Positions 9,167 to 13,946 of a stretch of DNA of 64,000 bases are shown in pieces (the first letter of the stretch is position 1; every line of letters starts with the position of its first letter). Made by a program: the position numbers and the translations under genes. The notes below the pieces were generated by a model that was given only the letters and a program-made list of their open reading frames with translations, was not told where the DNA came from and did not search any database. Source of the stretch: Pseudomonas sp. 10S4 (lineage in GTDB: Bacteria; Pseudomonadota; Gammaproteobacteria; Pseudomonadales; Pseudomonadaceae); NCBI RefSeq assembly GCF_034344865.1, contig NZ_CP133774.1:124001-188000 (forward strand), written 5' to 3'.

Positions 9167-9195
9167 GCCTTGAATTTTGTTTGGCAAGCCGCCCG

Positions 9196-10227
9196 ATGAC
9201 CTCCCCTAAAAACGACAAAAATACACGCACCACCGGCCGCCCTACCCTCAATGAAGTCGCGCGCCTGGCCGGCGTCAGTCCGATTACCGCTTCCCGGGCC
9301 TTGCGCGGTGTCAGCACCGTGGCCACCGAACTGGTGGAAAAAGTCCAGAAAGCGGCGCTTGAGCTGAACTACGTGGTCAACCCCGCCGCCCGCGCCCTCG
9401 CCTCGGCCCAGAGCCATTCGGTGGTGGTGTTGGTGCCGTCGCTGTCCAACCTGTTGTTCATCGACACCCTGGAAGCCATTCATCAGGTTCTTCGGCCCAA
9501 GGGCTTTGAAGTGCTGATCGGCAACTTCCATTACTCGCGCGATGAAGAAGAAAACCTGCTGCGTAACTACATGGCCTATCAGCCACGCGGCTTGCTGCTG
9601 ACCGGTTTCGACCGCACCGAAAGCTCGCGACGGATGATCGAGGCGAGCAATATTCCCTGCGTGTATATGATGGAACTGGACAGCGGCGCGGGCCTTAATT
9701 GCGTCGGTTTCTCGCAACTGGCCGCTGGCGAAACGGCAGCCGAGCATCTGCTGTCCCGCGGTCGCAAACGCCTGGCCTACATCGGCGCGCAGCTCGACCA
9801 ACGCACCTTGTTGCGCGGCGAAGGTTTCCGCAAATCCCTGCAAAAGGCCGGCTTGTATGACCCGGACCTCGAAGTGCTGACCCCGCGCGCGTCCTCCGTC
9901 GGTTTGGGCGGCGAACTGTTCCTGCAACTGCTGGCCAGCCATCCGGACGTCGATGCGATCTTCTTTGGCAACGACGACCTGGCCCAGGGTGCACTGCTCG
10001 AAGCCATGCGTTGCGGGATCAAGATCCCCGAGCAAGTGGCGATCCTCGGCTTCAACGACCTGCCGGCCTCGGCGCACATGGTGCCGCGCCTGAGCAGCAT
10101 CAGCACCCCACGCGAAGCCATCGGCCGGCGCGCGGCGGAACAGATGCTGACGCTGATGGCCGGCAATGCAGTGGCCAAACCGGTGCAGGACATGGGGTTT
10201 GAGTTGAAGGTGCGGGAAAGCACCTAA
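9196..10227 (+). CDS. gntR: LacI-family gluconate repressor GntR
   Basis: About 343 residues from MTSPKNDKNTRTTGRP; a TTG 15 bases upstream is the alternative start. The N-terminal helix-turn-helix is LNEVARLAGVSPITASRALR with the LacI hinge AALELNYVVNPAARALAS. The periplasmic-binding-protein-like sensor domain runs from SHSVVVLVPSLSNLLFIDTL to the end, with FFGNDDLAQGALLEAMRCGI and FNDLPASAHMVPRLSSIS. GntR releases gntK/gntP in the presence of gluconate or 6-phosphogluconate. It is divergent from gntK, with operators in the shared intergenic region. Confidence 0.93.
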   Translation: MTSPKNDKNTRTTGRPTLNEVARLAGVSPITASRALRGVSTVATELVEKVQKAALELNYVVNPAARALASAQSHSVVVLVPSLSNLLFIDTLEAIHQVLRPKGFEVLIGNFHYSRDEEENLLRNYMAYQPRGLLLTGFDRTESSRRMIEASNIPCVYMMELDSGAGLNCVGFSQLAAGETAAEHLLSRGRKRLAYIGAQLDQRTLLRGEGFRKSLQKAGLYDPDLEVLTPRASSVGLGGELFLQLLASHPDVDAIFFGNDDLAQGALLEAMRCGIKIPEQVAILGFNDLPASAHMVPRLSSISTPREAIGRRAAEQMLTLMAGNAVAKPVQDMGFELKVREST

Positions 10228-10244
10228 GGCCAACCGCAGTCCAT

Positions 10245-10374
10245 TGTGGCGAGGGGGCTTGCCCCGTTGGGTTGCGAAGCAGCCCCAGAACCTACGACCG
10301 CATTTTTTCAGGTAGTCCGCATGCACCGGTCTACGACTGCTTCGCAGCCGAACGGGGGCAAGCCCCTCGCCACA
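10245..10374. repeat. REPIN (TGTGGCGAGGGGGCTTGCCCC family)
   Basis: Long palindrome of two inverted copies, including the GTTGCGAAGCAGC / GACTGCTTCGCAGCC inner arms, between gntR and the DUF6124 gene. Confidence 0.85.
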
Positions 10375-10402
10375 GGTTAACTCTCAGCCCTGGATTCAGC
10401 GG

Positions 10403-10651
10403 TTAGTCTTGCGAATCGAGGTTATCCAGCACCCGGTTCACCGCCAGTTCAGCCTGCAGAATGATCTGGGCAATCCCCTGCGCCGTGTTGCGCTGCGTAC
10501 CTTCCAGAAACGCAGCGAAGTCATGGGCAATGACACACGCCGAGGCCAGTGATTCGCAGGCGTGGGCCAGCAGGGTCTCGTTGTCGATATTGGGATTGAT
10601 GGCGAAGATTGGACTGGGTTTACGCGGGGGATTGGGGGTTGGCTTGAACAT
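10403..10651 (-). CDS. DUF6124 family protein (short form)
   Basis: 82 residues, starting MFKPTPNPPRKPSPIF and ending AELAVNRVLDNLD. It has the DUF6124 core TLLAHACESLASACVIAHDF. Most members I know are near 120 residues with a Ser/Pro-rich segment and an amphipathic helix after MFKPTPNPP; that part is absent here, so this is a short form. Function is unknown. The start is fixed by AGGAG seven bases upstream. Its leader RNA folds strongly and its hairpin loop is complementary to this ribosome site, which suggests translational control. Confidence 0.8.
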   Translation of the reverse strand: MFKPTPNPPRKPSPIFAINPNIDNETLLAHACESLASACVIAHDFAAFLEGTQRNTAQGIAQIILQAELAVNRVLDNLDSQD

Positions 10652-10658
10652 GATCACG

Positions 10659-10779
10659 CTCCTAGAGTCATGGAGCTGCCACGATTCGCTGCTAGACGAA
10701 AATAAGGTGACAGCTGTGCGCGGGCTAGCAGACCGGGACTCTAGAGACCGGTAGACCCGAAGGTCTTCCCACGCACAGC
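10659..10779 (-). ncRNA. Structured leader RNA with loop-to-Shine-Dalgarno complementarity
   Basis: Read on the minus strand, a 12-bp stem (GCTGTGCGTGGG, 10779-10768, with CCCGCGCACAGC, 10724-10713) encloses two hairpins. One is AGACC-TTCG-GGTCT (10766-10753). The other is ACCGG...CCGGT (10752-10732) with an 11-nt loop. That loop contains CTAGAGTC (10744-10737), perfectly complementary over 8 nt to GACTCTAG (10669-10662), which overlaps the first two bases of the AGGAG ribosome site of the DUF6124 gene. The fold predicts a pseudoknot that blocks translation. No known riboswitch class was recognised. Confidence 0.6.
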
Positions 10780-11149
10780 CGCCATAACGTGAACGGATCA
10801 CGAACGGTGAACGCTATGCGTCTAAAGTACCCAGGCTGCTAGACCCGATCGCTGAATTGCAGCGACACGGGAACGATAGTGTCCGGATGCCAGGCACACA
10901 AGCCGGCGGATTCTGGCGTAGTTGTAGGCAATGGAGCAAGAACCTGTAGCCTTCGGCAACCTGCTGAAACCTCTTTCCTACGGAGCATTCCTACATGCTT
11001 GTCTGTGGCGAGAGAAGCTGAGACCGGCGACTGATCATCCGCATTCTGAAACACCTTTTATCGGACACTCTATCGGCACGCGTGCAGAATCCTCGGCACT
11101 CGTGACCTGACTCAACAACGGCCCCCGGCACTTCCCCCCGGACACCTCC
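10780..11149. other. Intergenic region without a recognisable gene
   Basis: Divergent spacer between the DUF6124 leader and the secreted hypothetical. It holds direct repeats of GTGAACG near 10789 and 10806, a hairpin CGCTG-AATTG-CAGCG near 10850, and a second copy of CTGCTAGAC that also occurs near 10689. Promoters for both flanking genes are expected here but none is clear. Open frames across it lack codon bias and ribosome sites. Confidence 0.5.
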
Positions 11150-13736: not shown

Positions 13737-13779
13737 CGACTGTCATCGCCCAAAAAGATAAAGCTGACAATGAATACCC

Positions 13780-13883
13780 TGTGGCGAGGGAGCTTGCTCC
13801 CGTTGGACTGCGCAGCAGTCCCCTTCTTTTGGATAAAGAGAGGGGCCGCTTCGCAGCCCAGCGGGAGCAAGCTCCCTCGCCAC
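13780..13883. repeat. REPIN (TGTGGCGAGGGAGCTTGCTCCC family)
   Basis: Two inverted copies with inner arms GGACTGCGCAGCAGTC and GGCCGCTTCGCAGCCC, between the GST and the epimerase genes. Confidence 0.85.
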
Positions 13884-13946
13884 TGGTTCGGTGTCAGGCT
13901 TAACTGATCGGCATTACCACCGCCCCTTTTCCAAAAAGAGAGATTC

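Follow-up and report, generated by a model that had tools for sequence, protein, structure and literature searches.

The small DUF6124 gene of Pseudomonas sp. 10S4 is preceded by a strongly folded leader, and the question is what kind of RNA this leader is and what it does to the gene. The gene (82 aa; PF19619, E 6.1e-22), the predicted target of the RNA described below, lies on the minus strand at 10403..10651 of the window, by which we mean the whole 64-kb stretch of DNA analysed, and its start codon begins at 10651. An initial annotation had described in the leader a basal stem, a UUCG-capped hairpin and a second hairpin, eight of whose 11 loop bases can pair over the ribosome site, and had proposed an undescribed element, perhaps a pseudoknot switch responding to temperature, a ligand or a competing RNA.

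The leader contains a C4 element

All the parts described were found to be present on the minus strand. The UUCG-capped hairpin occupies 10753-10766, and the second hairpin, CCGG-UCUCUAGAGUC-CCGG with its 11-nt loop, occupies 10733-10751. Eight bases of this loop, CUAGAGUC, are exactly complementary to GACUCUAG at 10662-10669, which overlaps the AGGAG ribosome site (10659-10663). When the loop was compared with 200,000 shuffled versions of the 54-nt target, a run of at least 8 was obtained in only 0.23% of them; a chance match between loop and ribosome site is therefore unlikely. The basal stem is 17 bp long by Rfam alignment and fold, not 12 bp as first given, and the interval first assigned to the element, 10659-10779, was too short, as the 5′ end of the RNA lies at 10789 and an upstream half (a1b1 and a promoter-like site) extends to ~10900. 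Folding of the opposite, plus strand over 10640-10800 was unremarkable (z -1.1).

The element proved to be a described one. The Rfam model of the C4 antisense RNA (RF01695) matched the minus strand at 10703..10789 over its full length, 1-87, with 68.8 bits (E 2.8e-11; cut-off 45). The model of c4-a1b1 (RF03163) matched the same strand at 10828..10879 with 52.6 bits (cut-off 46.7). These were the only Rfam matches above cut-off in the 64-kb window; IsrK (RF01394), also considered, scored 26.1 bits against a cut-off of 50. Three stems of C4 are seen in the fold and in stem covariation, and the 87-nt element folded alone gave -45.8 kcal/mol. A GG is located at the 5′ base of the C4 stem, as in the RNase P sites described in PMC5320573, according to which C4 is an antisense RNA that is processed from a larger transcript and pairs with target mRNAs.

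In the order of transcription, and all on the minus strand, the module begins with a promoter-like site at 10872..10901 (TTGTGT, a 17-nt spacer, TATCGT), which stops 6 nt short of the first a1b1 hairpin. When the upstream regions of the 47 modules were aligned, three columns of TAnnnT (T, A and the final T) each proved at least 80% conserved, while a generic scan of the locus for consensus promoters and terminators gave nothing above threshold. The c4-a1b1 match begins at 10879, its first, unpaired positions overlapping the promoter-like site; these positions may be promoter instead of RNA. As judged from sequence only, the site is upstream of the entire element and not downstream of the stem. 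The c4-a1b1 element consists of a hairpin followed by a1 (CTAGCAG, within 10834-10842) in the loop of CGGG/CCTG. Next to it is b1 (ACTTTAGA, 10821..10828), recognized by eye in the window module only, which can pair with the b′ loop of C4, including one G-U.

Within C4, the a′ segment (CTGCTAG, 10725..10731) lies between stems and is unpaired in the predicted fold, and the b′ loop (TCTCTAGAGTC) is at 10737..10747. C4 is followed by the a2 hairpin (10685..10700), with CTAGCAG complementary to a′, and by a tentative element c (GTGGCAGCT, 10674..10682), whose complement is found in the 3′ arm of the basal stem of C4 and which overlaps an anti-ribosome-site GCTCC. The ribosome-site hairpin, GCTCC-ATGACTCTA-GGAGC, spans 10658..10676 and has both b2 (GACTCTAG, 10662-10669) and the AGGAG site inside it. 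The a′/a2 contact comprises 7 exact bases and the b′/b2 contact 8. Only the latter had been seen in the initial annotation, which missed a′/a2 and the upstream a1 and b1. Together, the a2 and b2 contacts, a1, b1 and the promoter-like site make up a complete P1/P4-type layout.

Downstream of the DUF6124 gene there is a convergent ORF on the plus strand (9181-10227), which we take to be LacI-like. In the immI operon of phages P1/P7, C4 is followed by icd and ant. The window locus, where C4 is followed by DUF6124 and then by the convergent ORF, is not an immunity operon of this kind. REP-like palindromic repeats, marked by repeated BLAST matches of related loci, are found near the module at 10221-10379 and 13777-13891.

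C4 modules throughout the chromosome

When the 7.27-Mb single-contig genome was searched with the C4 model, 48 matches were obtained at E<=10, and 46 of these were over the cut-off. We counted 47 modules, retaining L077 (40.6 bits) for its layout and leaving out L078 (16.1 bits). The same loose search of 14 control genomes gave matches in 5, none over cut-off. The 47 modules are distributed all round the chromosome, 24 on the plus and 23 on the minus strand.

A DUF6124 match was found within 600 bases downstream for 30 of the 47 C4s and a DUF3077 match for 4, leaving 13 with neither. After two of these 13, Bro-N proteins are encoded (E 9.1e-11 and 3.8e-8); Bro-N is found in phage antirepressors. 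The remaining 11 are followed by nameless ORFs, by decayed ORFs or, at L028, by none that could be found. The ORFs of L004, L009, L017, L070 and L075 gave nothing over cut-off against Pfam, and several ORFs after C4 look frameshifted or shortened. Five of the 36 DUF6124 matches in this genome are without a C4. These were considered as trans targets of other C4s; none of the five had both contacts, and L053 gave no start. At L044, a DUF6124 gene without C4, an a1-like hairpin lies directly before the ribosome site, and this locus is possibly a module that lost its C4.

The C4 stems were aligned for 45 of the 47 modules, L074 and L077 being left out. It was observed that 96.1% of cells were paired and that 19 of 25 pairs were changed on both sides. 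The third stem was weaker (83.9% of cells paired, changes on both sides in 1 of 4 pairs), which is due in part to slippage of the alignment at this point. The three-stem structure of C4 is conserved with compensatory changes.

RNA and predicted target change together

The b′ loops of the 47 modules are all different. At least 7 Watson-Crick bases at both contacts were found for 25 of the 47 own pairs of C4 and target, and for none of the 2162 foreign pairs. Two further genomes gave 28/42 own against 1/1722 foreign pairs and 24/35 own against 3/1190 foreign pairs, respectively. All 42 matches were used in the former; in the latter, G010, 35 of 36 were used, without a partial match (35.6 bits, model positions 22-66), and two b′ loops occur twice there (33 distinct among 35). 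The b′ loops of six modules were assigned by hand. In 10,000 shuffles, the observed totals for a2, b2 or a1 were never reached in any of the three genomes. The joint exact-match test took the place of a first-pass ranking by duplex energy, which was weaker (own b best in 29/47 rows, own a in 10/47), given that a′ types recur among the modules and that b has a part in common at the ribosome site.

Taken singly, a′ matched a2 over at least 7 bases in 43 of the 47 modules, and a1 matched a′ to the same extent in 46 of 47 own modules, compared with 104 of 2162 non-cognate pairs. For b′ and b2, at least 6 exact bases were obtained in 33/47, 33/42 and 28/35 modules of the three genomes; in the 14, 9 and 7 modules that fall below 6, the contact is weak or lost. 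Some copies have their a′ segment in common (26 types occur among the 47 modules), and when a was considered by itself, 7 bases were reached by 78 foreign pairs. The joint two-contact address is more private than a contact taken singly. From the separate rates, and given the shared a′, the foreign double matches expected in the three genomes were calculated by hand as ~1.4, 2.0 and 2.5, and 0, 1 and 3 were seen. Within-genome cross-talk is rare, yet not rarer than chance, so that the insulation may stem from a large address space and not from selection for it. When 148 distinct modules of several genomes were pooled, both tests were passed by 88 own pairs and also by 247 of 21,756 foreign ones, as relatives located in different genomes have loops in common.

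Same-genome pairs of modules with coding identity of at least 85% were also compared, and own b′/b2 runs exceeded crossed runs in 33 of 33. In L001 and L007, for instance, the 35-base spacer 5′ of C4 is identical, but the b′ loops differ and the b2 segments differ correspondingly. When b′ divergence within genomes was set against that between genomes at equal backbone identity, no difference was found. A synteny version of this comparison looked favourable and is not relied on, as window-family pairs dominate it and flanks were matched via repeats. A tight C4-DUF6124 cluster was noted in genome G019 at 1.821-1.827 Mb (L227, L228, L248 and L285); its proteins are 96-98% alike, and its b′ loops differ.

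Among 154 modules, 42 are related to that of the window in sharing its b′ core. Their a′ segment reads CTGCTAG, CTGCTAA or CTGCGA(A/C), and in 41 of the 42 the matching version, of 6 or 7 bases, is carried by a1 and a2; only L114 departs from this, as its a2 pairing is limited to 5 bases and a match at a1 is missing. In 107 further loci, a′/a2 reached at least 6 bases in 104 (the failures being L174, L178 and L114) and b′/b2 did so in 93. Flanking sequence is common to the window and 4 of 5 compared window-related loci, which places the module at the same chromosomal position there. These results support the core of the initial annotation, namely masking of the DUF6124 ribosome site by the exposed loop: loop and site co-vary across the modules of this genome and of two others, the a′/a2 contact co-varies too in relatives of the window module, and related leaders retain both the stem and the complementarity.

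A tentative third contact

Element c, lying between a2 and b2, forms a run of 9, including one G-U, with the C4 3′ arm. In three genomes the own C4 3′ arm matches element c better than swapped arms do (z 3.8, 3.6 and 3.2), and the observed total was reached by 0, 0 and 10 of 10,000 shuffles. Runs of at least 8 were found in only 17/47, 9/42 and 10/35 modules. Pairing of element c with this arm would disrupt the C4 stem and engage part of the GCTCC by which the ribosome site is closed, so that the two folds would be mutually exclusive.

Distribution of C4 and DUF6124

C4 was detected in 110 of 119 sampled Pseudomonas genomes, with at least 10 copies in 73 and at least 33 in 17. Outside Pseudomonas, 273 genomes of the class were sampled, and 17 of them have 1 to 6 C4s. 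It may be noted that one genome of another family of the class (G379, 1.5 Mb; loci L096, L101 and L087) has six C4 matches, four of which follow one another within 1.4 kb amid short repeated ORFs. DUF6124 was found in 95 of 118 Pseudomonas genomes and in none of the 273 others sampled in the class. Over the 119 genomes, the counts of C4 and DUF6124 gave a Spearman correlation of 0.89, with the 17 genomes having at least 33 C4s entered as 33 and genomes missing from the DUF6124 listing entered as zero; without those 17 (102 genomes) the value was 0.87. None of the 95 DUF6124-bearing genomes is without C4, and fifteen genomes have C4 (1 to 4 copies) and no DUF6124. Among the closest 79 of 425 named DUF6124 loci, all from Pseudomonas, C4 lies just upstream in 78, the exception being L186.

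When phage and plasmid records were searched for DUF6124 by tblastn, a single one of 50,697 phage records contained it, in a position where this prophage-type record ends, and none of 72,556 plasmid records did. A stretch resembling the window C4 is present in 32 phage records, some of them duplicates. In phage PAShipCat1, C4 lies just before the annotated anti-repressor Ant, and phage PAJU2 has the same arrangement with a nameless ORF. Four other records were read, two with nameless ORFs and two small, which we read as satellite-like. The layout is the same in the six records (two nearly identical), all of which have a T7 run separating b1 from C4. Among the 124 modules of three genomes, 11 have a T run of at least 6 before C4, as do 18 of 107 other loci.

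The six phage C4s matched their own targets with runs of 9, 7, 7, 4, 4 and 7 at a and of 9, 9, 7, 7, 7 and 8 at b, L300 and L301 being weak at a. When 231 chromosomal C4 modules were compared with the targets of the six phage loci, none had both contacts of at least 7. In the reverse direction, the C4 of phiAH14b (L298) matched both contacts of the leader of a chromosomal Bro-N gene (L002), the sole double match for the six phage loci.

The DUF6124 protein

Comparison of the window DUF6124 protein with 15 relatives gave dN/dS values of 0.14 to 0.35; the protein is under purifying selection. The structure of a full-length relative, P0116, was predicted from 42 sequences (pLDDT 77, pTM 0.47). 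The model has three helices, the last two long and confident, and its comparison with PDB and viral structures gave no match with E <= 0.001.

Discussion

We consider it likely that the folded leader is a C4 antisense RNA, predicted to be cut from the DUF6124 transcript, which would silence that gene through b′/b2 and a′/a2. The identity of C4 and c4-a1b1, the complementarity of a1, a′ and a2 and of b′ and b2, their joint change and the 47 different loops are established at the level of the sequence itself. The working of the module is drawn from analogy with phage P1/P7 C4 and P4 CI. One transcript would start from the promoter-like site at ~10872-10901, and RNase P would free from it a C4 RNA of ~77 nt. 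The freed RNA would pair in trans with the leader, b′ on b2 and a′ on a2, and ribosome entry would be blocked; the upstream a1b1 copy would serve as a competing or termination target, like seqA in P4. Each module would be a self-contained lock, with decoy, key RNA and locked small gene on one transcript. As the addresses differ, each lock would act almost independently of the others, the predicted effect of an RNA being to switch off the gene next to it and few others, if any.

Such trans pairing cannot be told from a cis pseudoknot by complementarity alone. In a pseudoknot, b′ and a′ would pair with b2 and a2 of the same unprocessed leader, something would shift the fold, and no free C4 would be needed. 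All the complementarity does lie within one leader, compensatory drift of a cis contact would also yield 47 different loops, and the pairing of the C4 3′ arm with element c gives two exclusive folds. However, the full C4 covariance profile is retained, and a separate upstream a1 copy is present in 46 of 47 modules. Moreover, PMC5320573 describes a processed form of ~77 nt for phage C4 and processing-like reads for the multicopy C4 RNAs of A. baumannii. We regard a purely cis-acting leader as unlikely. Even less probable, in our opinion, is that the modules are decaying relics of phages or satellites, their pairing kept by recent descent alone and serving no present function. Such an origin would agree with the place of C4 in phage immunity loci, with the ORFs that look frameshifted or shortened, and with the T7 run of the phage loci (6/6) that is mostly missing from chromosomal modules. 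It agrees poorly with purifying selection on the window protein, with three separate sites changing in concert, with modules scattered over both strands of the chromosome (24/47 on the plus strand), and with the near absence of DUF6124 from phage and plasmid records.

The temperature- or ligand-sensing switch of the initial annotation, by which the DUF6124 gene would be governed by a riboswitch or RNA thermometer of an undescribed kind, found no support in the analysis. The leader position, the stable stems and the exposed loop complementary to the ribosome site would suit a sensor. The Rfam class, in contrast, is that of an antisense RNA, and the would-be sensing loop differs in all 47 copies, unlike a ligand pocket; we find such a sensor scarcely credible.

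The modules are predicted to have their origin in phage or satellite immunity: six phage records share the layout, with a T7 run that is mostly missing from the chromosomal copies. A bolder proposal, which we put forward tentatively and hold to be doubtful, is that in some Pseudomonas chromosomes 35 to 47 mutually insulated locks form a bank, in which every lock keeps one DUF6124, DUF3077 or Bro-N gene silent. The two-part address would have been re-coded after duplication, and through the exclusive fold (C4 stem versus element c) RNA release would be coupled to closure of the ribosome site. A phage or satellite that enters with a matching address would spring one lock and release the protein, the modules acting as address-specific phage alarms.

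Type I toxin-antitoxin systems have an antisense RNA, made from the opposite strand or from a separate gene, and a small toxic protein, and occur in many copies per genome. Like these, the Pseudomonas modules occur in many copies per genome and have an antisense RNA with complementarity to the site where translation of a small protein begins; unlike these, the C4 RNA would arise from the leader of its own target, and the helices modelled for DUF6124 have no known match. With the C4 of P1/P7 (RF01695 and RF03163) the modules share a three-stem RNA in the leader of its own target, a′ and b′ directed against sites at or before the ribosome site, and an upstream a1b1. They differ in being chromosomal and multicopy, in addresses that vary within a genome, and in having DUF6124, not icd/ant, as the target. 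Weinberg et al. 2010 (PMC2864571) list both C4 and c4-a1b1 for phages; among bacteria, C4 is listed for Proteobacteria and c4-a1b1 for gammaproteobacteria.

The closest parallel for number is provided by the group 1 C4-like sRNAs of A. baumannii AB5075, described in the accessible text of PMC5320573 as 21 members with variable loops and a processing-like read pattern. There too, many C4-derived RNAs with variable loops occur in one chromosome. Their targets, as far as that text goes, are proposed and not identified, whereas the Pseudomonas copies have a target site directly downstream, and the pairing was compared computationally. For P4 CI, the order given in PMC4825925 is an upstream target (seqA), the antisense RNA and a downstream target (seqC), and this is also the order of the window module; for Gifsy-1 IsrK, the same paper states that a short upstream RNA can counteract silencing. 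Unlike P4 CI and IsrK, the window module has no T run of at least 5 before C4, and its target gene is unrelated.

The C4 RNA class, the phage layout and multicopy C4-like RNAs in A. baumannii are already known; the new part is the Pseudomonas array, which lies outside the window. In the open-access literature searched (titles and abstract openings, with most subscription-journal papers falling outside it), no account of such a C4 array and no paper naming DUF6124 was found; DUF3077 is mentioned in a single paper. A phage immunity RNA has seemingly been multiplied into a large set of RNAs and targets within single chromosomes, with addresses that hardly overlap. The array offers a natural and directly testable case of RNA regulators that become orthogonal following duplication, and the DUF6124 and DUF3077 families gain a first regulatory context, in which their genes are probably kept off.
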